From Halobacteriovorax sp. (GTDB taxonomy: Bacteria; Bdellovibrionota; Bacteriovoracia; Bacteriovoracales; Bacteriovoracaceae), in contig PBIO01000008.1 of assembly GCA_002720865.1 (NCBI GenBank), positions 1-63,096 of the forward strand: a stretch of 63,096 nucleotides of DNA. The letters are read 5' to 3'. Each line of letters begins with the position of its first letter. The first letter of the stretch is position 1. Shown here one piece after another: positions 20,956 through 39,545 of the stretch. The notes under the pieces were generated by a model. It was not told where the DNA came from, ran no database searches, and saw only the letters and a program-made list of their open reading frames with translations. The position numbers and the translations under genes were made by a program.

Positions 20956-22299
20956 ATGGTACATGTCAAAAAAGGGCTGGACGTTCCCGTAAGTGGTGAA
21001 CCCGTTCAGACAATTAGCCCTGCTCTTACTACAAAAACAGTCGCATTAACTGGTCCAGACTATAATGGAATGAAACCTTCCATGCTGGTTAAGGTTGGTG
21101 ATGAAGTTAAAATCGGACAAGCTTTATTTGCCTGTAAAAAAGTTGAAGGAGTGATTTATACTTCTCCAGCTGGCGGAAAGGTTACAGAAATCAATCGTGG
21201 CGAAAAAAGGGTCTTTGAAACTCTTGTCATCGAAGTTGGCTCTGAAGAAGGGCATGTTGATTTCACTAAATACACCGGAAAAGAACCCAAAGATTTAAAC
21301 CGTGATGAAGTTGAAGGCTTACTTGTCGAGTCCGGTCTCTGGACGGCTCTTAGAACAAGACCTTTTTCTAAAAATCCTGAACTAGGTTCTGAGCCCCACA
21401 GTATTTTTGTTAATGCTATGGATACCAATCCTCTTTGCCCAGACCCACAGGTCGTAATTAACGATAATAGTGGGGACTTTAAAAATGGTGTTAAAGTTTT
21501 AACTCATTTAACGTCTGGAAAAGTACATCTTGTTAAAAAAGCTGGCTCCAATATTGAAGGCCCAAACTGTAACGACGTAAATGTTCACGAGTTTAGTGGA
21601 GTCCACCCTGCTGGTAATGTGGGAACACATATTCATTTTATCGACCCTGTTCATGCCAATAAAATAGTCTGGTCAATTGGGTATCAAGATGTCATCGCCA
21701 TTGGAAAACTTTTTTCTACTGGAAAGCTACACCTCGAAAGAGTTGTCTCAATTGCCGGCCCCCAAGTAAAAAGTCCAAAGCTTGTAAAGACAAGACTAGG
21801 AGCAAACCTTTCGGATCTAACCGCTGGTGAGCTCAAAGACGGAGAAAACCGAATCATTAGTGGTTCACTCCTAAATGGTACTCAGGTTCAAGGTCCATTT
21901 AACTATCTAGGGCGCTACCATAATCAAATTACAGTTTTAAGTGAGGGGCGTGATAGAGAATTTTTAGGATGGCAGATGCCAGGTATGAAAAAATTCTCGG
22001 TAACCCGTGCCTTTGTTGGAAAACTTTTTAATAAGAAGTTTGATATGCATACTAATCAAAATGGTTCTTATCGTGCCATGGTTCCAATCGGAAATTATGA
22101 AAAGATGATGCCACTTGATATGCTTCCCACTCAGCTTATTAGAGCACTTTTAACTCATGATACAGACTTGGCTCAAAAGCTGGGATGTCTCGAGTTAGAC
22201 GAAGAAGACTTAGCACTATGTACATTTGCTAGTGTGGGTAAAAAAGATTTCGGACCAGTACTAAGAGAAAATTTAATAATGATTGAGAAGGAAGGATAA
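20956..22299 (+). CDS. nqrA: Na+-translocating NADH:quinone reductase subunit A
   Basis: 447 residues, standard NqrA length. The N-terminal [11 protein letters not shown], the [10 protein letters not shown] lipoyl-like segment and the [10 protein letters not shown] stretch are diagnostic. NqrA is the cytoplasmic peripheral subunit next to the quinone site. It is the first gene of nqrABCDEF, each overlapping or a few bases from the next, so the whole set is one transcript. The operon pumps Na+ during NADH oxidation by ubiquinone, as is usual in marine bacteria. Confidence 0.96.
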
Positions 22300-23507
22300 T
22301 GAAGTTCTTGCGAGACTTGCTGGATAGCCAGCATTCGAAATTCGACAAGGGAGGAAAACTTGAGAAGTTTTACCCCATGTACGAAATGATCGACACATTT
22401 GTTTATACTCCCGGTGATGTAACCAAGGGGAGTGTTCACTTAAGAGATACTATAGATTTGAAAAGAACTATGGTTACTGTAGCAATGGCTTTAGGACCTT
22501 GTATCCTAATGGCCCTTTACAACACAGGCTTCCAGGCAAATACGGCTTTATCTGGAATGGGGGCAACTGTTGCTTCAGGGTGGAGAGGAGAAATCCTTTC
22601 AACACTTGGGCTTGGAGTAAACCCAGCAAACCTAATCGCCAATATGGTTCACGGTCTTCTTTATTTTCTTCCCATATTCCTAGTCACGAATATCGTAGGT
22701 GGATTTTGGGAAGTGATTTTCGCCACAGTAAGAAAACATGAAATTAATGAAGGTTTTCTTGTTACTGGTATTCTTTTTCCGTTAACTCTTCCTGCTACTA
22801 TTCCTCTTTGGCAAGTTGCACTAGGTATTACCTTCGGTGTCGTAATCGCTAAAGAAATTTTTGGTGGAACAGGTAAAAACTTTTTAAACGTGGCATTGAC
22901 CGCAAGAGCATTCTTATTTTTCGCTTATCCTGCACAAATATCGGGTGATGCTGTTTGGATTGCTGCAGACGGGTTTACAGGAGCTACGGCCTTAGGTCAG
23001 GCTGCTGCTGGTGGAGTTGCTGCTATTACTTCTAGCTGGAATGAAGCTTTTCTTGGGCTCATACCTGGCTCAATGGGTGAGACCTCAACTTTAGCATGTT
23101 TATTGGGGGCAGGTTTTCTCGTCTATACGGGAATTGGGTCTTGGAGGATCATGCTCTCACTATTAGTTAGTGCTGGAGTCTTTGCTCTACTTCTCAACTT
23201 TATTGGTTCGGGAACGAATCCAATGTTCGGGCTACCAGCTCACTGGCACTTCGTTCTAGGTGGGTTTGCTTTTGGTCTTGTTTTTATGGCCACTGACCCA
23301 GTCACAGGAGCCATGACCTTTAAAGGACAGTATTTCTATGGGGCTTTAATTGGCGTGATGGTGATACTTGTTAGAGTTATAAACCCTGCTTTTCCTGAAG
23401 GGATGATGCTCGCGATTCTTTTTGGTAACTGCTTTGCTCCTCTCATCGACTGGTTTGTTGTAGATGGAGATATTAAAAGAAGGGAGGCGCGTAATGCACA
23501 AGGATAG
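22299..23507 (+). CDS. nqrB: Na+-NQR subunit B
   Basis: 402 residues, about ten membrane helices. It carries riboflavin and a covalently bound FMN; the FMN-attachment motif (S/T)GAT is seen in [13 protein letters not shown]. It forms much of the Na+ channel with NqrD and NqrE. The ATG overlaps the nqrA stop by one base and nqrC begins inside its 3' end. Confidence 0.96.
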
Positions 23508-24285
23508 TACCGCAAAAACACTTCTTGTCGCTTTTCTACTTTGCCTGACCTGCTCAGTTCTAGTTTCAACTGCCGCGGTGAAATTGAAATCCAGGCAAGT
23601 TGAAAACAAAAAGCTAGATATAAAGAAAAACCTTCTTCTGGCCTCAAAGCTTATTAAGCCGACAGCAAGTAAAGATGAAATTAATGAAGCTTATAAAAAT
23701 GTTGAGGCAAAACTTGTTGATTTAGAGACTGGTGAATTCGTAACAGATATGGACCCGGGATCTTTTGATGCGGTTAAGGCGAGCAAGGATCCAAAGAGAA
23801 ATGTAATAATCCCTTCAGATAAAGACATTGCAAAAATTAAGCGCCGTTCAAAAATTGAAAAGATCTATTTTGTGAAAGAAAACGGAGTGATCAAACAAAT
23901 TGTATTACCTGTAAATGGGAAAGGGCTTTGGTCTACTCTTTATGGATTTATGGTTCTAGGCACAGATACTAAAACTGTTCTTGGACTTGGGTTTTATCAG
24001 CATGGTGAAACCGCAGGTTTAGGTGGTGAGGTCGATAACCCAAAGTGGAAAGCACAATGGGCCGGAAAAGTAGCATTTGATAATGATTGGAATCCCGTTT
24101 TAAAAGTCGTTAAAGGTGGCGTAGTAGAGGGAACTTCTACAAGTCAACACGAAGTCGATGGACTTTCCGGAGCTACTATTACTGGTAATGGAGTAACTGG
24201 GCTGGTCAATTATTGGTTAGGCTCTCATGGGTTTGGTTCTTTCTTAGCAAAATTTAGAGCCTCTCAAACTCAAGGAGGAATGTAA
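23494..24285 (+). CDS. nqrC: Na+-NQR subunit C
   Basis: 263 residues with one N-terminal membrane helix and a periplasmic FMN domain. The flavinylation motif is SGATIT in [14 protein letters not shown], the target of ApbE. The start is placed at the ATG at 23494, which has GGGAGG seven bases upstream and overlaps nqrB by 14 bases; an upstream in-frame ATG at 23464 has no such site. Confidence 0.95.
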
Positions 24286-24902
24286 TGAAAATTAAAGAGA
24301 CACTTTTCAATCCTCTTTTTAAAGATAATCCAATCGCCCTGCAGATATTAGGAATTTGCTCTGCTCTGGCTGTTACAACTAAACTAGAGACATCTTTGGT
24401 TATGTCCGCCGCTGTTGTTGCTGTTTGTGGTTTTTCAAATTTATTTGTTTCTATTATTAGAAATCATATTCCAAGTAGTATTCGAATTATTGCTCAAATG
24501 ATCGTTATTGCATCGTTAGTTATTCTTACGGATCAGATCTTAAAAGCTTTTTTGTATGATGTTGCTAAAGGACTCTCAGTTTATATTTCCCTCATTATTA
24601 CAAATTGTATTGTGATGGGAAGAACGGAAGGTTTTGCCATGAAAAATGGCCCATTCATCAGCTTCGTTGATGGAATTGGTAACGGACTTGGGTATTCAAT
24701 CGTTTTAATTTTTGTTGGGTTCTTTAGAGAGCTTTTTGGCTCAGGAACTTTGATGGGTTATAAAGTTCTTCCACTCGTTGCAGACGGGGGATGGTATCAG
24801 CCAAATGGCATGGCCCTTCTTTCACCAAGTGCTTTTTTCTTAATCGGATTTTTTATTTGGGGTCTAAGGACTTGGAAGAAAGATCAGGTTGAGACGGAGT
24901 AG
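24285..24902 (+). CDS. nqrD: Na+-NQR subunit D
   Basis: 205 residues, six membrane helices. The [21 protein letters not shown] start and the [13 protein letters not shown] half-helix region are family signatures. The latter Cys, with its partner in NqrE, coordinates the intramembrane Fe-S cluster. One-base overlap with nqrC. Confidence 0.96.
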
Positions 24903-24910
24903 GGGGATAT

Positions 24911-25522
24911 ATGTTTGAACATTATTTAAGTTTATTTTTAAAAGCGGTTTTTGTAGAGAACTTAGCGCTTTCATTCTTCCTAGGTATGTGTACCTTTTTG
25001 GCAGTATCTAAAAAAGTTAGTACTTCAATTGGGCTAGGAATTGCGGTCGTCGTTGTTCAGTCTATTACAATTCCAGTTAATAATTTAATTTATAACTATC
25101 TTTTAAAAGAAGGAGCCTTGTCTTGGGCCGGAATGCCGGAAGTCGACCTTTCCTTTCTTGGTGTTATTTCTTATATCGGTGTTATTGCAGCCATGGTGCA
25201 AATTTTGGAAATGACACTCGATAAATTTTTTCCAGCACTCTATAGCGCTCTTGGGATTTTCTTACCCCTAATCACTGTGAATTGTGCCATTCTTGGTGGT
25301 TCACTCTTTATGGTGGAAAGAGATTATACGTTCGTAGAGTCTGTTGTTTTTGGCGTTGGATCCGGAACAGGTTGGGCCCTGGCTATTATGGCACTTGCAG
25401 GGATTAGAGAAAAAATGCGTTATTCTGATGTTCCTGACGGGTTAAGGGGCTTAGGGATAACTTTTATTACTGTAGGATTAATGGCCTTAGGGTTTCTAGC
25501 CTTCAGTGGAATTCAATTATAA
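24911..25522 (+). CDS. nqrE: Na+-NQR subunit E
   Basis: 203 residues, six membrane helices, homologous to and inverted relative to Nqr[20 protein letters not shown] at the N-terminus and [14 protein letters not shown] contain the cysteines for the intramembrane Fe-S cluster. Eight bases after nqrD. Confidence 0.96.
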
Positions 25523-25534
25523 AGAGAGAATAAA

Positions 25535-26758
25535 ATGAATGAAATTGTTTTAGGCGTTACCATGTTTACTGCGATTGTGCTTGCCCTCGTGCTTGTCATT
25601 TTATTCGCAAAATCCAAGCTCGTTGCTTCTGGCCCCGTTAAATTAAATATTAATGGTGAAAAAGATATAGAAGTTGGGGCTGGTGGAAAATTATTAAATG
25701 TTCTTGCCGACGAAAAGCTCTTTGTTTCTTCCGCATGCGGCGGTGGTGGGACCTGTGGCCAATGTAAAGTTAACGTCCTAGAAGGCGGCGGAGAAATTCT
25801 TCAAACTGAACTTTCGCATATTACGAAAAAAGAAGCTCGTGAAGGATGCAGGCTTTCATGTCAGGTTGCAGTTAAGCAAGACATGAAAATTGAAGTACCT
25901 GAAGAAGTATTTGGGGTTAAAAAATGGGAATGTACTGTTAGGTCTAACCATAACGTAGCAACCTTTATTAAAGAGCTTGTTCTAGACTTACCTGAAGGGG
26001 AGAGTGTTCCTTTTAGAGCAGGTGGATTTATTCAAATTGAAAGACCTCCAGGACTTACAATTGACTATAAAGACTTTGATGTTGAGGATGAATATAAAGG
26101 GGACTGGGACCATTTTAATATCTGGCAATATAAGTCCTATGTTCCGGACGAGACAATTAGGGCCTATTCAATGGCAAACTATCCTGAAGAGACTGGAATG
26201 ATCATGTTAAACGTGAGAATCGCTTCTCCTCCCCCTCGTTTGCCAGATGTTGAGCCTGGGAAAATGAGCTCATATATTTTCAATCTTAAGCCAGGTGATA
26301 AGTGTACGATCTCAGGACCTTTTGGTGAGTTCTTCGCAAGAGATACGAAAAAAGAAATGATCTTTGTTGGAGGTGGAGCAGGGATGGCGCCAATGCGCTC
26401 TCATATCTTTGACCAATTTAGAAGGATCAAGACAGATCGAAAAGTAACTTTTTGGTATGGAGCAAGATCAAAAAGGGAAATGTTCTATATCGATGATTTT
26501 GATACTATTCAAAAAGAAAATGAAAACTTTACTTGGCACTGTGCTCTTTCAGATGCCTTACCGGAAGATAATTGGGAAGGGTATACCGGATTTATTCACC
26601 AAGTTCTTTACGATAATTACCTTAAAGACCATCCAGCACCAGAAGACTGTGAGTATTACCTCTGTGGTCCTCCAATTATGAATAAATGTGTAATTGATAT
26701 GCTTGTTGATCTAGGTGTAGAGCGTGAAGATATTATGCTGGATGATTTCGGAGGCTAA
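25535..26758 (+). CDS. nqrF: Na+-NQR subunit F (NADH dehydrogenase subunit)
   Basis: 407 residues. One N-terminal membrane helix is followed by a plant-type [2Fe-2S] domain ([12 protein letters not shown] with a later CRLSCQV), an FAD domain (RAYSMANYP) and an NADH domain ([20 protein letters not shown]). Electrons enter the complex here. It ends in the GG typical of NqrF. Its last bases contain the ribosome binding site, and perhaps the start, of apbE. Confidence 0.97.
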
Positions 26759-27785
26759 AATTAAGCTAGTTTTCGCCTTAGGGGCCTTTTTTATTCTGAT
26801 AGGCTGCCAAAAGAAAGTAGAGCCTTCCCACATTGTGGGAAGGACTATGGGAACCACGTATTCAATAAAGTATTACTCCACAAAGACTAAGCCAGATATT
26901 AAACAGGTCAATAAAGAAGTAAATAGACTTCTAATTGAAGTAAATAGACAAATGTCTACTTACATACCTACTTCTGAAATATCTCGATTCAACCGTGAAA
27001 TTAAAAGCCAAACGGCCTTTCCTATAAGTGATGATTTCTACTTTGTTTTAAAGAAGTCATTAGAAATTTCAAGAAAGACAGGAGGGCAGTTTGATCCAAC
27101 AATTGGTCCCCTCGTGAATTTATGGGGATTCGGCCCAAATGGGGTTAAAAAGGTTCCTACAGAGGCTCAAATTAAGAAGGCTAAGTCTAGAGTCGGCTTT
27201 GAAAAACTTAGCTTAGATAGTCAAAATAAAAGAATTTCAAAATCAATAGATAATCTCTATTTAGATTTATCAGCTTCAGCTAAAGGCTTTGGGGTCGATA
27301 AAATCTCGCAGTATTTAGAAACTTTAAAAATTGAAAACTATATGGTTGAAATTGGAGGAGAGGTTCGAACTAAAGGCAGTAAAGGGGAGGCTCCATGGAG
27401 AATTGCAATTGAAGCTCCTCATCCAACTGACCAGTCAAAACCTTTTCAAAAAATTCTTGATTTAAATGAACACGCCGTTGCAACGAGCGGAAACTATCGT
27501 AATTACTTTGAAAAAAATGGGAAGAAGTTTGGGCATACAATAGACTTTCGGACCGGACGTCCAACAGAACATACTTTAGCTTCAGTTTCAGTTATTACAA
27601 AAGCTTCGTGTACTGAAGCAGATGCTTTGGCAACTGCACTAATGGTTATGGGACCTTTAAAGGCCCTAAAGTTTGCAGAATTAAATGGTATAAAGGCCTT
27701 ATTCGTCTATAAACTTTCAGGTCAGACTGAGGGAACTTTTGTAGAAGAGTCTACATCACACTTTAAGAAGGAATTTCGCTTATGA
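26742..27785 (+). CDS. apbE: FAD:protein FMN transferase (lipoprotein ApbE)
   Basis: About 347 residues. Attaches FMN to Thr of NqrB and NqrC. Signatures: [14 protein letters not shown] near the start, [12 protein letters not shown], the GGEVRTKG metal/FAD segment and [20 protein letters not shown]. The N-terminus is a lipoprotein signal ending in LIGC. The start is ambiguous: a GTG at 26724 and an ATG at 26742 lie inside nqrF, but GGAGG at 26750-26754 points to an ATT codon at 26760, from which a textbook lipoprotein signal would begin. I list the ATG. It belongs functionally and transcriptionally to the nqr operon. Confidence 0.92.
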
Positions 27786-30721: not shown

Positions 30722-30808
30722 TGGTGCCCGAGGCCGGACTTGAACCGGCACGTCCGTGAGGACGAGGGATTTTAAATCCCTTGTGTCTACCAATTTCACC
30801 ACCCGGGC
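30722..30808 (-). tRNA. tRNA-Leu (anticodon TAA)
   Basis: 87 bases on the minus strand. The acceptor GCCCGGG pairs with CTCGGGC, and CCA is encoded at the 3' end. The anticodon stem is AGGGA/TCCCT with loop TTTAAAA, giving anticodon TAA. A long variable arm (GTCCTCACGGAC) is typical of class II leucine tRNAs. The T-arm is GCCGGTTCAAGTCCGGC. It reads UUA codons, which should be frequent in this AT-rich genome. Confidence 0.96.
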
Positions 30809-30869: not shown

Positions 30870-32426
30870 ATGAAATTTACGGGTCTTTCCCTAGTTCTTT
30901 TATTTTTATTAGCTTCCTGCACCTCAAGAAAAGAAGGTCTAAAGCGTGTAGAAGCTGTTCCTGTTTGGTTTAAGACAGATAAACGCTTTTCTAATCAAGA
31001 TCAAAATGGCGCGCCTTTAACTCATCCATTTTTTGACTTGGCGCCATTTGGCTCTACAAAAGATAACTCTATAAACTTTTTTGTTACTACGCCCATAAAC
31101 TCAAAGCATTATTACGATATAGATCTCGTCTCTGGGATGCTTTACAGAAAACATAGTTATTGCGAGCAGGTCGATATTTGGGAAAAATATGAATCCGATA
31201 TCCATAGACCTAGATTTGCAATTGGGGTAGTTCCTCGGTTACTTGACCAATTAGGAAACCCTCAAAAAATCATTGTGTTTGGAAAAAAGAATTACTTTCA
31301 TAAATTTAAACACGATGTGACATATAGCCAAAGGGCCAAAGTGGTAGGTGGGGTTATTCACCAATATTGCCAGAATCATCCCTGTAAAACGAGGGATAAC
31401 TGGTTATCTACTCTTGTATTGATCGGTGTTAACTCTGAAGATCCTAGATATTCCCAAATTAAAAACTTAAGCCAACTCAAAAAGAAAGTTAATTGGAACT
31501 ATTTTAAAGCTTTTATGGAAAATGGCTTTGGTAGAACTAAGAATGGACCATTTGAGGCTCCCGCTTATCGAATGGTAGGTGAAGTTCCAGGAAAAGAAGC
31601 ACTCAAGTTTGCTATTACGAAAGGACATTTGTTTAAATTTGAAGAAATGAGGAGATTGCGAACGAGTTGTCAAAAACTTTATGACTACCTTTGGGAAGGG
31701 TCAAAGGTCGTTAGGCAGTTGGCAAAAGAAAAGTCTAAAATTGAAAAGAAAAACAAGAAGAAAAGCGACTACCTTTTCGTGATAGAGAATAAATATAGTG
31801 ATACCAAAGCTGCCGTAACCGTAAATCGCTTTGAAGAACAGTCAATTCTTAAGAAAAATAAGACAAAAGAATTAATGGACTTTAAAGGTAATAAGAAAAA
31901 GTATTCGGATTTTTCTACGTTCTTTTTTGATTTTTACGGGAAGTACTCTAAAAGATACAAGACTTGTATCAAGTTTGTGAAGCCAAGTAATTTAAGTGAA
32001 GATGCACAAAGGCATTGGTTCTTTGCCTTTGTGAATGGATATATGAAGCTTGAAGATGTGGATTATATCTATAGGTGTGGCAAAAGAGGCTGGGTTGAGA
32101 ATAGTCGTCTTTCAAATGGGAAAAGAATTTTTGACTTGACCGCAAATCGAAAATGCTTAGCCTACTCACTTGATTATGCTTTTGATCAAGTCGTTACAGT
32201 TAATACAGGTTTAAAAAGAGCATCCAGACCTTTTAATCGCTTTATTGAGTACGATTATGGTGTTGGGGGTTCTCACCGTAAGATTCAATCTTGGATTTAC
32301 GACAATGGTAAGAAAATTTCCTGCTCCGAAAGTGAAGACGTTGAGGCTAGAGAAAACTGGAAAAAGAAAAACCCTGAGACAATTTTTCCTCGTGACGTTC
32401 AATGGAAGCGTTTTACAGTTGAATAA
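30870..32426 (+). CDS. Large lipoprotein of unknown function
   Basis: 518 residues with a lipoprotein signal ending LLASC (Cys17). The mature protein is Lys-rich and aromatic-rich and has about ten cysteines, including a YCQNHPC pair, so disulfides outside the cytoplasm are likely. A Lys/Glu stretch near residues 285-300 may be helical. No family recognised. It ends only eight bases before the NuoB-like gene, so the two could be co-transcribed, but no functional link is known. Confidence 0.6.
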   Translation: MKFTGLSLVLLFLLASCTSRKEGLKRVEAVPVWFKTDKRFSNQDQNGAPLTHPFFDLAPFGSTKDNSINFFVTTPINSKHYYDIDLVSGMLYRKHSYCEQVDIWEKYESDIHRPRFAIGVVPRLLDQLGNPQKIIVFGKKNYFHKFKHDVTYSQRAKVVGGVIHQYCQNHPCKTRDNWLSTLVLIGVNSEDPRYSQIKNLSQLKKKVNWNYFKAFMENGFGRTKNGPFEAPAYRMVGEVPGKEALKFAITKGHLFKFEEMRRLRTSCQKLYDYLWEGSKVVRQLAKEKSKIEKKNKKKSDYLFVIENKYSDTKAAVTVNRFEEQSILKKNKTKELMDFKGNKKKYSDFSTFFFDFYGKYSKRYKTCIKFVKPSNLSEDAQRHWFFAFVNGYMKLEDVDYIYRCGKRGWVENSRLSNGKRIFDLTANRKCLAYSLDYAFDQVVTVNTGLKRASRPFNRFIEYDYGVGGSHRKIQSWIYDNGKKISCSESEDVEARENWKKKNPETIFPRDVQWKRFTVE

Positions 32427-32434
32427 AAATATAG

Positions 32435-32959
32435 ATGAATGACTCGAACATGAACTCCAATATAATTTCAGAAGTGGCCTTTACGGCTAATTCTGAAAGC
32501 TTTTTAAAAAAATGGAATGAATCGATTCTCCAAGATGAGCTATGGCCCTTTCCTGTTTCATTTTCTTGTTGTGCCTCAGAGTTAAGAAGCTTTAGAGGGA
32601 TGCAAAACTCATCTAGTTATGTCGATGTTTCTGATATTTCTCGCCCACCAGAAAAGGCAGACTTATTGATCGTGGGAGGAACAATTTCTCAAAAGATTGC
32701 TCCTCATCTCATAGATATCTACGAGAGAATGCCTGAAGAAAAATGGGTGCTAGCTGTAGGGGCTTGTGCTTCAAGCGGTGGACCTTACTGGACCCATAAT
32801 GTTGTTCAGGGTCTGAGTCAAATAATTCCGGTAGATGTATACCTTCCAGGTTGTCCTCCCTCTAAAGAAATGATTATTCAGTCTTTTGAAGCCATTAGGG
32901 AAAGAGTTGCGAAAAAAGTCTCTGCTCTCTCACAGACTAGGTGGAGTCTCAATGTTTGA
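32435..32959 (+). CDS. NuoB-like Fe-S subunit of a complex-I-related enzyme
   Basis: 174 residues. All four ligands of the N2 [4Fe-4S] cluster are in place: Cys45 and Cys46 (FSCCASE), Cys111 (VGACASSGG) and Cys140 (LPGCPPS). The ADLLIVGGTISQKIAP stretch aligns with the NuoB core. The segment between cluster Cys46 and this stretch is shorter than in classical NuoB, removing part of the loop that lines the quinone cavity. It is the first of three overlapping genes (NuoB, NuoCD, NuoI). No NuoA, EFG, H or J-N genes lie in the window. Confidence 0.88.
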   Translation: MNDSNMNSNIISEVAFTANSESFLKKWNESILQDELWPFPVSFSCCASELRSFRGMQNSSSYVDVSDISRPPEKADLLIVGGTISQKIAPHLIDIYERMPEEKWVLAVGACASSGGPYWTHNVVQGLSQIIPVDVYLPGCPPSKEMIIQSFEAIRERVAKKVSALSQTRWSLNV

Positions 32960-34652
32960 CTTTCAAGAGCAGGAAGACCTGGACCTTATTAATAATCGCA
33001 AGTTACTGCTTAATGAACTTGAGCTTGAGTTTGGTGAGAATCTGACTTTAGGCACGACAGAAAATATTTCGATAGTTGTGAGTCCATCTAGTTACCTTGA
33101 GAAAATTTTGCAACTTAAAAATAGTTTTGGTTTTAATTTCTTCTTAAATTTATGGATTAGTGACAATATTGCCGACGGAGAAAACTTTGAGCTAATGGTT
33201 CAACTTCTCAATATGGACACCCATCAAAGAGCCATTATCACATGCCCGGTCACAGAACTAGAACCAGTTCCTAGCCTTTCAGATATTTATCATGGAGCTT
33301 TTTGGTGTGAACAAGAATCATGGGATATGTATGGCGTAAGTTTTGACTCTATTCCAAAAGAAAGAATTCTTTCACCAGAAGGGATGGAAGGCCATACCCT
33401 AAGAAAAAACTTTGAACCTAAGCCGTTTAGATTAAAGCAGTCTGTCGATTACAGCTTTTCGCCGGACCCAAGAGTTTCACGAAGTGAGTGGAAGAGAAGA
33501 TCTGTTCACAAGTTAGATATGTTTGGAGGGGAAGTAAACGGACCCCTTAGAGCTATTGTAGAAGTTTATGATGAGGTTATTGAAAGAGGGCGATTGGAGA
33601 TAGGTTATCTCCATAGAGGTGTGGAGAAAATATTTGAGAATCTAAGTCTCAACCAAATTCAGCCACATCTTTGCCGAATCAATACGAGTTCACCCACCAT
33701 GTTTCAGCAGGCTTGGTTTGGTGGAATTGAAAAATATTTAGGTGTTCATATTCCAGATAGAGCTAAAGCTCTAAGAATGGTCTTTAATGAACTAGACAGA
33801 ATTTATGAACACCTCGACACCATTGGTAGGATCGTTGACAATTTAGGCTGTTACCCTTTTTTAAAAGAAACTATAGAAATGCAAGAGTCTATTTTAATGG
33901 TCATGAAAAAATACTCAGGTCAAAGACTAAATGGAAGCTTAATTTGTTTAGGTGGAGTCAAGAGTGATGTTCCTAAGGGTTGGCTAACTGAATGTTTGAA
34001 CTTACTAGGCTTTTTAGAGAAAAAAGTACTCGAGGTAACTAAGTTAATTTCAAACTCAACGCTTTGGATGAAACGGCTGTGCCGATTTGAACTAAATTCA
34101 AAGCAGGCTATGGATTGGGGGGTTTCAGGCCCTAACTTGAGAGCTTCCGGGGTCAATTATGACATGAGGAAGGTTTCACCTCATTATTTTTATAACGATA
34201 TTGAGTTCGAGGTACCTCTGGGAATTAATGGTCAATGTTATGATCGATATTTAGTTAGAGTTGAGGAAATTCTTCAATCTCTTTCAATCATTAGTCAGCT
34301 TTTAGATAACCTACCTCTAGGTGATACTAAAACCAAAGATAATCGAGTACTAATTCCGCGCAAACAAGATGTTTACTCCGAAACTAACGCACTTATTCAG
34401 CATTATCGATTTTATGATGGAGGAGTGATTCTTCCAGAAGGGGAGTTTTATAACTCAATCGAATCTTCTAATGGAGAGTTAGGTTTCTATGTCCATTCAA
34501 GAGGAGAGAGTACTTTAAATAGAGTTAAGCTAAGAACCCCAGGCTTTTACTCAGGCCAATGTTTTACTGATATTTGTGAAGGTGGAAGTATAGAAGAGCT
34601 TCCCTTAGTTATTAACTCTCTAAATTTAGTTGTAGGGGAGATCGATAGATGA
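32952..34652 (+). CDS. Fused NuoC-NuoD-like subunit lacking canonical quinone-site residues
   Basis: 566 residues. Residues 1-165 are NuoC-like (LSDIYHGAFWCEQESWDMYG); the rest is NuoD-like (IGYLHRGVEKIFEN, IPDRAKALRMVFNELDRI, ending LVVGEIDR). Where NuoD has GPxHPxxHG at the quinone loop, this protein has FGGEVNG, a deletion that removes both histidines. At the conserved quinone-contacting Tyr it has Thr or Ser (CRINTSS). The CxxC pairs of [NiFe]-hydrogenase large subunits are also missing. It is probably a structural or redox core with a changed acceptor. The ATG at 32952 has GGTGGAG six bases upstream and overlaps the NuoB gene. Confidence 0.85.
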   Translation: MFDFQEQEDLDLINNRKLLLNELELEFGENLTLGTTENISIVVSPSSYLEKILQLKNSFGFNFFLNLWISDNIADGENFELMVQLLNMDTHQRAIITCPVTELEPVPSLSDIYHGAFWCEQESWDMYGVSFDSIPKERILSPEGMEGHTLRKNFEPKPFRLKQSVDYSFSPDPRVSRSEWKRRSVHKLDMFGGEVNGPLRAIVEVYDEVIERGRLEIGYLHRGVEKIFENLSLNQIQPHLCRINTSSPTMFQQAWFGGIEKYLGVHIPDRAKALRMVFNELDRIYEHLDTIGRIVDNLGCYPFLKETIEMQESILMVMKKYSGQRLNGSLICLGGVKSDVPKGWLTECLNLLGFLEKKVLEVTKLISNSTLWMKRLCRFELNSKQAMDWGVSGPNLRASGVNYDMRKVSPHYFYNDIEFEVPLGINGQCYDRYLVRVEEILQSLSIISQLLDNLPLGDTKTKDNRVLIPRKQDVYSETNALIQHYRFYDGGVILPEGEFYNSIESSNGELGFYVHSRGESTLNRVKLRTPGFYSGQCFTDICEGGSIEELPLVINSLNLVVGEIDR

Positions 34653-35119
34653 TCCTTGGGAAGAACCTCTATAGTAAGTCGTCAAAAATACTTAATCTAT
34701 TGAGAATTTTTAATTTAATATTACCTTCGATATGGAAGAAGTCATCCGACAAATTTGGAAACTCTGAAATACAAAATGAGGTAGGTGCGCCGGCCCTCAC
34801 CCTAACGGACACAGGTGGGCTACGCTGTACCAGTTGCATGCTTTGCCAAAATATATGTCCAAGCTTTTGCATTAAGATAGAAACTTTTGAACATGCAGAA
34901 GAAGAAGCGGCTCCCTTAAACTTTGATATTAATATTCTAAAGTGCACTTTTTGTGGATTATGCGAAGAGGCTTGTCCTGTAGACGCTATTCGAATGGTAG
35001 GACCAATGCCGATGGCCGGACATAGTGAACAAAATTGGATTTGGGATAAAGAATACTTAAGCACTTATGCAGGTGAGCTTAGAAGTAAGGTTGGGGAAGA
35101 TCGCCCCTTGATGCCCTAA
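34649..35119 (+). CDS. NuoI-like 2x[4Fe-4S] ferredoxin subunit
   Basis: 156 residues with two cluster motifs, CTSCMLCQNICP and CTFCGLCEEACP, spaced as in NuoI. The amphipathic N-terminal helix region (about residues 8-32) fits docking to a membrane arm. It carries electrons towards the NuoB-type cluster. Overlaps the NuoCD-like gene by four bases. The source of electrons (NuoEFG or another dehydrogenase) is not in the window. Its stop shares CTAA with convergent aat. Confidence 0.9.
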   Translation: MILGKNLYSKSSKILNLLRIFNLILPSIWKKSSDKFGNSEIQNEVGAPALTLTDTGGLRCTSCMLCQNICPSFCIKIETFEHAEEEAAPLNFDINILKCTFCGLCEEACPVDAIRMVGPMPMAGHSEQNWIWDKEYLSTYAGELRSKVGEDRPLMP

Positions 35120-36868: not shown

Positions 36869-37825
36869 TCAGATTAAAAAGGATTTATCCGGTGAAAGTT
36901 TATTTTTTAAAGAAAGTGATGAATAAGTATCCAAAAATTTATCAACACTAGAGCGGTGTGTTAAGAAGTCATTAAGGACTTTATATTCAAAATCTAAGAT
37001 AAGTTGGTCAAGGTTATTACTAACTCCTGCAATATGGGAAGAGCAGTGTAAGTTTTCAAATTCGGAGAATTCATTAACTTTAAAAGGCTCGTTTTCAAAA
37101 ACATCAAGATAAGCATGTGCTGATTTATTTTCTCTTAAGTAATCTTTTAGGTCTTCTTGATTTATAATTTTTCCTCTTGCAGCATTTACTATGACCGAGT
37201 CTTTTGGAAGGCGTGACAGTAGTTCCTTATTAACTAAATGATGGCTTGTTTGATTTAAGCTTGCAGCGATTAATACAATATTCTTATTTTCAGGAACTAA
37301 TTCCTCAAGTCCTTTAAAAGGATCGTAACAGGAGAGGGAGTTAACAAGAGGACTCAAACATTCGATTAGTTTATTTCCAATTAATCCCCGACCTATAACT
37401 AAAACATTTTGATCAGCCAATCTTTGTCTTTTCCAGCTTCTTGATGAGTCCCAGCTTTTTCTTTCTAAGATTTGACAATAGTGTTTAAAAACACAGGAGA
37501 GAATATATTCAGTAACCCCTGCTGCTCTAACTGGATTACCAACAATTATTGGGAAGTTATAGCCTCTTACAAAGCTAGAAGGAATATTATCGTAGCCCGA
37601 ATTTGGATGAATTATCAATTTAACGTTCTTGATTGAGTCAGCTGTTAACAGCTCGAAACGAGTATGGGTGTTTGTGATAAGTATATCAGCGTCTGTTAGT
37701 TTATTGGCCGGAGTGATTGAAAGCTTAGAGAGTCTATTTATTTCAAGTTCTTTAAAGTTAGGGGCTTGGTAAGGGGAAATATCCGTTCTAAAGAATTGAA
37801 GATTAGTGGTTTCCATCCTCTGCAT
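36869..37825 (-). CDS. D-2-hydroxyacid dehydrogenase family protein
   Basis: 318 residues. Has the Rossmann motif VIGRGLIGNKL and the catalytic triad of the family: Arg in NAARGKIINQEDL, Glu in DVFENEPF and His in SSHIAG. It reduces a 2-keto acid or oxidises a D-hydroxy acid with NAD(P)H. The substrate is unknown; the N-terminal domain is divergent. The first 23 bases overlap the end of the C92-type hydrolase gene. An ATG nine bases later (37816) is an alternative start. Confidence 0.85.
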   Translation of the reverse strand: MQRMETTNLQFFRTDISPYQAPNFKELEINRLSKLSITPANKLTDADILITNTHTRFELLTADSIKNVKLIIHPNSGYDNIPSSFVRGYNFPIIVGNPVRAAGVTEYILSCVFKHYCQILERKSWDSSRSWKRQRLADQNVLVIGRGLIGNKLIECLSPLVNSLSCYDPFKGLEELVPENKNIVLIAASLNQTSHHLVNKELLSRLPKDSVIVNAARGKIINQEDLKDYLRENKSAHAYLDVFENEPFKVNEFSEFENLHCSSHIAGVSNNLDQLILDFEYKVLNDFLTHRSSVDKFLDTYSSLSLKNKLSPDKSFLI

Positions 37826-39545
37826 GCCTTTTATCGATTGAGTAAGATCTTTGTAGGTTTTTATAATCGAGCTCTTTATACTCTGTCTTACATACAGATA
37901 TCAAGCGATGTTTGTACCTATGAGAGCCCTGTCTTAGGTTTGTTCTTCGAACAGTGCGGCACTTCCTAACGGGACGGTCATAGCTAGGTAATTCACTGGT
38001 ACTTCTATCTTTATTTTTTATAAAACCGAGTTTCTTAGCCAAGACGTCCATATTGAGCCGTTCTACCTTTCCCCTTTTTTTACTAAAGAGATAAGAGTGA
38101 AAGTCAATCGGAGAGTCCTTATATAGAACAACTTGTGCAACGTCATCTGGAGAGATAGTCGCTCTACCCATAATGTATTTGGTGGGCCAGTTAATCTTTC
38201 CGAAGGCATGGTAGACGAGCTCTGAACAAACAACTTTATCTGTGGTTGTTACATCAAAATTAAAATCATATTTTTTACCAATCTGATTCATTATTCTTGA
38301 ATACATCTGAAAAACTTCATCTTTATCATCATTTAGTATACTTGGATGTCTAAGGATTAAAATCTCATCTATATTCATCCATTCTCTAATGCTAGCGGTT
38401 CTTACACCAGGCCGTAGAGCTTCTACTATTACGTGACCTTTTCTCAGTTTTTCATGATGAGGAACTACGGAGGGATGGTTCCACATCCCTATATTCTTTA
38501 GCTGCTTTTCTGTTCCGATATACATGGCCGCGTGACCAAAGTTTCCTGGTATAAAGGTATCCGTTAAGGCAAAAGGCGTTTTTTCAAAAATCATATCTAG
38601 TGGTTTTAGGACTGACTTTAGATTTGCGATAACTTGTTTATCTTCGTGAAGATAACCTTTACGCCATCTGATAGCACCAACGGTGTTGCCAAAGAAGCCA
38701 CTGATAATATTCATAGATTTATCAAGGAATGAAACAAAACCATCAATAAAAGAATGTTTTTTCAGCTTCAAACTCGCATCAGATAATAACTCGTTTGTTA
38801 TTTGATTTTCATCAATTGTTTGCATGAGTTTTTTAATTTGCTCATCAGTTTTAGAAAGTCTTAAAAGCTCAGATCGATTTTTACGATAATCAGTTAAGAA
38901 ATCACGAAGCTTTGCGCGGTTCTTTTTAGATGTCGTATGTTCGATCATTTGTCCGAGTTCTTTTAGCTTATAGTTTTTATTGCTATCTGCTTTTAAAATA
39001 TTCTTAACGATTCTTCTGATTTTTCCCTTCCTATAAAAATGAAGGTAGCCATCCCTATAAATGCCAAACAAATTTACGTGAGTTGATAGCCAAATCAAAT
39101 TTCTCTTCGTTAGTTCAGGATTCTCTTGGACAACAATCTTTTCGTCCTTAGCTTGATCGCCAATCTGATAAAGACTTGAGTACTCAAGGGCCCTTGCTGA
39201 TAGAGTATGAGTGGCACCCAAAATTTTGGCGAGTAGGTGAAGTTCATGTCCATTTAATACTGAGCTTTCTGCAACAATATTTTGGACTTCTTTTCCAAAC
39301 CTATTATTGAGGCCTTGTTGCTTGTTAATGGCATTGTGAAGTTTTAAAAACTTTCCAATATTTTGATTTAGCTGATTTGAATGAGAAGCAGGTTCATCCC
39401 AAGAGACAGGTGTTTCTAGGATAACCTTTGCAATTTCCCGAAAAAAAGCAGTTGGGCTTTTTAATATTGGGTCATAAACATCTGCCAGACAGAGGTTTAA
39501 AACCAGGCCGAGGGCCAAAATAGCTTGAATTGAGGTTTTTATCAT
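37803..39545 (-). CDS. Second secreted YiiX/C92-type permuted papain-fold hydrolase
   Basis: 580 residues with a signal peptide ending near residue 21. It is a paralogue of the 2125-3717 protein: His338 in PGNFGHAAMYIG, Cys440 in VVCSELVYHAFG, a shared IGKKYD(Y/F) segment, shared NWPT, and the same Cys-containing C-terminal tail (RKCRT and VCKTEYK). The 300-residue N-terminal part is helical and of unknown function. It probably acts in the periplasm or outside on cell-wall or lipid amide bonds. It heads a run with the 2-hydroxyacid dehydrogenase, the arginase-family gene and aat. Confidence 0.78.
   Translation of the reverse strand: MIKTSIQAILALGLVLNLCLADVYDPILKSPTAFFREIAKVILETPVSWDEPASHSNQLNQNIGKFLKLHNAINKQQGLNNRFGKEVQNIVAESSVLNGHELHLLAKILGATHTLSARALEYSSLYQIGDQAKDEKIVVQENPELTKRNLIWLSTHVNLFGIYRDGYLHFYRKGKIRRIVKNILKADSNKNYKLKELGQMIEHTTSKKNRAKLRDFLTDYRKNRSELLRLSKTDEQIKKLMQTIDENQITNELLSDASLKLKKHSFIDGFVSFLDKSMNIISGFFGNTVGAIRWRKGYLHEDKQVIANLKSVLKPLDMIFEKTPFALTDTFIPGNFGHAAMYIGTEKQLKNIGMWNHPSVVPHHEKLRKGHVIVEALRPGVRTASIREWMNIDEILILRHPSILNDDKDEVFQMYSRIMNQIGKKYDFNFDVTTTDKVVCSELVYHAFGKINWPTKYIMGRATISPDDVAQVVLYKDSPIDFHSYLFSKKRGKVERLNMDVLAKKLGFIKNKDRSTSELPSYDRPVRKCRTVRRTNLRQGSHRYKHRLISVCKTEYKELDYKNLQRSYSIDKRHAEDGNH

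Follow-up and report, generated by a model that had tools for sequence, protein, structure and literature searches.

Complex I subunits are usually retained for redox-driven pumping. The window analysed here, a stretch of 63,096 nucleotides on contig C8 of the 33-contig, 4.9 Mb genome (G000) of Halobacteriovorax, a marine predatory bacterium, encodes homologues of NuoB, NuoCD, and NuoI, and thereby resembles the CD-fused complex I represented by Nuo of Escherichia coli, with which it shares the three proteins and 12 retained Fe-S cysteines. Unlike E. coli Nuo, the window system has no quinone-site His/His/Tyr and no NuoE-F-G, is split over two loci, carries a lipoprotein gene in its operon, and has a candidate membrane arm that is unrecognisable by sequence. 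The core of NuoB, large subunit, and NuoI is also found in group 4 [NiFe]-hydrogenases and formate hydrogenlyases (HycE, HyfG), Mbh, and Mbx. From a comparison with RnfC, NqrA has been proposed to have lost its cofactor and substrate sites while keeping a structural role (PMC4014512); however, NqrA is one subunit of an active enzyme, whereas here the whole complex is affected. In the open-access PMC literature, no description of such a degenerate complex I was found.

The genes in the window lie in the order lipoprotein gene, nuoB, nuoCD, nuoI, next to a divergent tRNA gene that is listed for context only:

30722 to 30808, minus strand: tRNA-Leu(taa)
30870 to 32426, plus strand: lipoprotein with a predicted inorganic-pyrophosphatase-like fold at about residues 51-260 (invariant columns; AlphaFold model compared with the PDB)
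32435 to 32959, plus strand: nuoB-like gene (NuoB subfamily model, score above cut-off; alignments)
32952 to 34652, plus strand: nuoC-nuoD fusion (HMM and PDB matches, motif table, AlphaFold model)
34649 to 35119, plus strand: nuoI-like gene (two four-cysteine motifs for the [4Fe-4S] clusters N6a and N6b)

The sequence-only reading had identified these genes as a NuoB with all four N2-cluster cysteines, a NuoC-NuoD fusion, and a NuoI with both [4Fe-4S] motifs, and each assignment held. In NuoB, the motifs SCC..E, GAC.SSGG, and PGCPP supply the four N2 cysteines (CCCC), as the alignments also indicated; NuoCD matches both Complex1_30kDa and Complex1_49kDa; and NuoI carries two CxxCxxCxxxCP motifs with eight [4Fe-4S] cysteines. 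All 12 cysteines are conserved in the window's genome and its two congeners (G001 and G002, the three being Halobacteriovorax-type genomes), which suggests, from the alignments, some redox role in this genus. NuoCD probably starts at the ATG at 32952, overlapping the nuoB stop, with a TTG at 32886 as an in-frame extension. Its score is under the curated cut-off for genuine NuoD, with good matches to complex I only, and many NuoD core residues are retained. The structure prediction that had been called for on the NuoD half gave a model with the fold of E. coli NuoCD (TM 0.88), well predicted around the position of N2.

The quinone site is replaced as had been read: GPQHPATHG of NuoD has become FGGEVNG, and FCDRMDY has become LCRINTS, so that the Tyr is gone. 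The four quinone-site positions H, H, D, Y read G, N, C, T in the window's genome and differ among the three congeners (GNCT, NNSS, LNGM). A shortened NuoB quinone loop had also been claimed, and this did not survive alignment, since the distance from CC..E to GG is 39 residues both in the window NuoB and in the canonical NuoB of the same genome; the loop has its usual length with other letters, the FGAEVVRFSPR-type sequence being replaced by VDVSDISRPPE. The N- and C-terminal CxxC pairs that bind nickel in [NiFe]-hydrogenases are absent from NuoCD, which ends in GEIDR, in agreement with the first reading. On the hydrogenase side, the PDB matches (7z0s, 6cfw) are weaker than those to complex I, which has the best scores. 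Membership of the hydrogenases, Mbh, or Mbx was rejected because the CxxC nickel ligands are missing.

A whole-genome search for NuoA, NuoH, NuoJ to NuoN, and a second, canonical nuo set, likewise suggested by the first reading, found both:

contig C11, 143897 to 146673: canonical nuoB-C-D-I, with GPQHPATHG and DRMDY
contig C14, 191520 to 199261: canonical nuoA-H-J-K-L-M-N
window, 20956 to 26758: Na+-NQR (NqrA, NqrB, NqrF; Pfam)

NuoE-F-G are absent from the window operon, and the NuoF family PF01512 has no match in the whole genome, so the canonical complex I looks to be of the 11-subunit type. Three systems thus coexist in this bacterium: Na+-NQR, a canonical complex I, and the degenerate complex. 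The proposal that Na+-NQR had taken over the housekeeping role was right about its presence but not about its acting alone, given the canonical enzyme. The Na+-NQR operon (20956-27785 of the window) comprises six nqr-sized genes followed by a 353-residue gene.

The module had been called an orphan with neither membrane nor NADH-module genes. For the window this is correct, but the genome holds, besides the canonical arm and without NuoF, a candidate for a degenerate second membrane arm, and for that reason the module is probably no orphan:

contig C14, 186464 to 191515, minus strand: candidate second membrane arm, seven genes A'-H'-J'-K'-L'-M'-N' (position, order, sizes, helix counts)

These genes directly follow the canonical nuoN in the same direction and encode products of 84, 224, 146, 69, 497, 310, and 308 residues, after which comes a protein with a GYF-like domain and tetratricopeptide repeats (GYF-TPR protein). 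Their order is colinear with NuoA-H-J-K-L-M-N, and the helix-count pattern 3-H-5-3-L is kept. No sequence search links A' to N' of this genome to NuoA to NuoN. In some eroded arms of other genomes, a comparison of profiles could identify H', J', K', and A'; it failed for L', M', and N', except for M' and N' of one genome (G036), and identified none of the seven in the window's genome. In L', the equivalents of the NuoL TM5 Glu and TM7 Lys (Glu144/Lys229) are absent, as far as an uncertain alignment of a very divergent protein can tell, and the NuoH quinone loop is missing from the second arm of this lineage. Based on position, order, sizes, helix counts, and the intermediates in other genera described below, the seven genes are most likely the membrane arm that partners the window genes.

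The GYF-TPR protein (C14:183304-186426; locus L103:3304-6426, minus strand) has 1040 residues, with the GYF-like domain at the N-terminus and many TPRs that weakly match those of GltE and PilW. Throughout the family its gene is conserved behind nuoN, the G000 and G002 proteins being 70% identical; a search of four genomes from other families within the phylum did not find it. Almost all genomes have this gene after the second arm. The idea that it encodes an additional subunit was set aside: the gene also comes after the canonical nuoN in genomes where the arm is missing (G005, G033, and genus g24), which leaves membership of the protein unproven.

The family Bacteriovoracaceae was sampled with one genome per species, many of them metagenomic, so that an absence may reflect incompleteness. 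The peripheral genes are syntenic in about 24 genera, in the order lipoprotein-B-CD-(E-F-G)-I followed by aat, arginase, 2-hydroxyacid dehydrogenase, and map, which excludes chance. More than 30 genomes have seven colinear genes after the canonical nuoN and then the TPR protein. In two of them (G015 and G136; loci L046 with L084 and L119 with L144), the second arm is plainly NuoA, H, J, K, L, M, and N, with the NuoL Glu/Lys and the NuoH Glu residues kept, and the peripheral arm is intact as lipoprotein-B-CD-E-F-G-I with GPSHPATHG and DRLNY. In a third (G032; L048 with L096), the second complex is intact as far as the contigs reach, its membrane arm beginning intact before the contig ends. These three resemble the window system in gene order, upstream lipoprotein, and position after the canonical nuoN; unlike it, they keep GPSHPATHG, DRLNY, and E-F-G and represent a normal 14-subunit-type enzyme. 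The ancestral gene set of a CD-fused complex I is thus still recognisable in G015 and G032, and the suggestion of a new branch between complex I and hydrogenases gives way to an eroded copy of a CD-fused complex I.

Adjacent to the module, a gene at 37803-39545 of the window (minus strand) is syntenic in many genomes of the family; it encodes a protein of 580 residues whose C92 (YaeF/YiiX) domain is of the permuted papain-like amidase type. In a genome from another family of the phylum (G043, L065:10322-19501), two other sets of complex-I-like genes stand back to back, and the NuoD of one set has diverged strongly (GPLHTSLPG, ADHLDPEG).

Across the family, erosion affects the quinone site, the proton-channel residues, and often all Fe-S cysteines, with reading frames and gene order preserved. 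In G021 the erosion of both arms is slight; in G023 and G034 it has gone further, and for the window's genus, sequence no longer identifies the membrane genes. At least 12 genomes have positional orthologues that lack the NuoB ligands; all of these ligands are gone in several lineages, and several genomes have lost those of NuoI too. In G022, G036, and G017, NuoI has shrunk to about 103 residues with few cysteines left; the NuoI-like reading frames of L061, L062, and L071 (103-104 residues) have few CxxC-type cysteines and look more like zinc ribbons than dicluster ferredoxins. At the end stages (L106 in G019, L108 in G016, L111 in G008), the lipoprotein gene and flanking synteny are kept and the NuoCD-like gene can hardly be recognised or is absent. 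The more NuoCD resembles canonical NuoD, the more the membrane genes tend to resemble their canonical counterparts, with a Spearman coefficient of 0.64 (n = 30), or 0.51 with one genome per genus (n = 19, p = 0.03), figures that shared ancestry inflates. In a tree of canonical NuoBCDI rooted on other families, the intact or near-intact second complexes (G032, G015, G021, G009) are scattered beside eroded ones, G021 being sister to the window's genus, G015 to G007, and G009 to the group of G022, G036, G006, and G025 (support 84-95). Barring horizontal transfer of intact operons, these scattered positions indicate repeated loss of redox function.

The window genes are under purifying selection and are not pseudogenes. 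Between G000 and G001, pN is 0.077 for the lipoprotein, 0.148 for B, 0.085 for CD, and 0.129 for I, against a saturated pS of about 0.75. Identity between G015 and G136, the intact pair, is 81-93% for the Nuo proteins and 66% for the lipoprotein; between G000 and G002, it is 20-29% for the membrane genes, 68% for the lipoprotein, and 70% for the TPR protein. Judged by these identities, the rates of Nuo proteins and lipoprotein are reversed between the intact pair and the window's genus. In genus g3, which holds genomes named H. marinus, L' is 27-39% identical and nevertheless 505-510 residues long.

The lipoprotein accompanies intact and eroded complexes alike. It is present in 82 of the 97 family genomes sampled, and a search of 194 further genomes of the phylum found none, bar one weak match. 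No Pfam or NCBIfam family matches it. An alignment of 19 homologues shows the lipobox Cys17 and eight further invariant cysteines. The best PDB matches of its AlphaFold model (mean pLDDT 67.6) are all family I pyrophosphatases (Z 15.8, 3.2 Å, 177 residues), the similarity covering about residues 49-263, most of which have a pLDDT of 60-89; the top PDB matches of a profile search are pyrophosphatases too, individually non-significant. The catalytic DGDPLD aligns with LGNPQK, and the first and third catalytic Asp are absent from all 19 homologues. Unlike the soluble family I enzymes whose fold it appears to share, the lipoprotein has a lipobox, an additional C-terminal part with conserved Cys, and replaced Asp residues. 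The lost Asp, the retained fold, and the lipobox together make it likely, from sequence and model, that the protein lies outside the cytoplasm and has a pyrophosphatase fold without catalytic activity. A supposed conserved leader upstream of its gene (LCLPISPPG...LNY...CQ) was discarded: the first part is the antisense of tRNA-Leu and the second reads, from the sequence, as the tRNA-Leu promoter, so that tRNA-Leu(taa) explains the conserved letters.

Given these results, we lean towards a second complex I that has been kept as a membrane-embedded, non-respiratory, and probably structural assembly. The ancestor would have been a regular NADH:quinone oxidoreductase with the subunits A, B, CD, E, F, G, H, I, and J-N, the window NuoB-NuoCD-NuoI corresponding to its peripheral arm and the seven-gene cluster on C14 to its membrane arm. 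In the window lineage, E-F-G would have been lost together with the quinone site, the quinone loop of NuoH, and the Glu/Lys of the NuoL proton channel, and the complex could then not work as a quinone-reducing proton pump; pumping of the known redox-driven kind requires the His/Tyr of NuoD, the NuoL Glu/Lys, the quinone loop of NuoH, and E-F-G. The two arms may still assemble, the lipoprotein encoded in the same operon may belong to the complex on its extracytoplasmic side, and the role may be that of a structural or sensory membrane platform rather than a redox one. Loss of the redox and pumping parts with retention of most genes points to a probable function other than respiration. Against this stands genus g24 (G025, G147, G245, G251), which keeps the peripheral genes and has no second arm at the expected place after nuoN. 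The wider proposal, that a whole complex I has repeatedly and independently become a non-redox, non-pumping assembly with a pseudo-pyrophosphatase lipoprotein, and perhaps the GYF-TPR protein, for an envelope function, is plausible and put forward tentatively.

For the window's genus, the first reading had instead proposed an Fe-S relay with a changed acceptor, in which NuoI and NuoB would pass electrons along three [4Fe-4S] clusters and on to an acceptor other than quinone where the quinone site used to be. The derivation from complex I and the relay residues in this genome and its two congeners bear that proposal out in part: the four NuoB and eight NuoI cysteines are conserved under purifying selection, the NuoCD fold around N2 is well predicted, and the three retained cluster sites make a changed acceptor possible in this genus. 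However, the genome has no NADH module and no NuoF for such a relay, and the letters at the old quinone site vary among congeners, unlike those of a conserved new site. A changed acceptor also cannot explain the family as a whole, because many orthologues have lost every NuoB ligand, several of them the NuoI ligands too, and yet persist. We regard this explanation as rather unlikely, though far from negligible for the window's genus.

It is less probable still that the peripheral module works by itself or supplies the canonical complex I with spare or regulatory subunits, with the C14 genes unrelated. The distance between the two loci and the armless genus g24 would fit such a role, but the loci are intact together in G015 and G136 and eroded together elsewhere; lineages in which no canonical membrane arm was found beside the degenerate complex (G023, G018, G067, G010) keep both loci, and those without the lipoprotein (G005, G033, with the TPR gene directly after the canonical nuoN) are also without the second arm. 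A functionless relic heading for loss, for which the parallel erosion, the near-loss in L106, L108, and L111, and membrane genes often just 20-48% identical within genera could be cited, is very improbable, since pN is far under pS in the window genes and throughout the five genomes of genus g3 the seven membrane genes all keep their reading frames and order and vary little in size despite the divergence of L'. That the complex still reduces quinone and pumps protons by means of unusual residues, in favour of which the kept NuoD fold and many kept core residues can be named, is scarcely credible with the quinone-site His/His/Tyr, the NuoH quinone loop, the NuoL Glu144/Lys229 equivalents, and E-F-G all absent.

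Annotation of such genes as 'NADH dehydrogenase' can mislead in predatory bacteria. The family offers a natural series that starts with an intact enzyme and leads to forms whose quinone site, Fe-S ligands, or proton-channel residues are missing, with most of the genes still present. The series is a source of natural separation-of-function variants of NuoB, NuoD, NuoH, and NuoL, and with it one can test for a function of the complex I framework that does without electrons.
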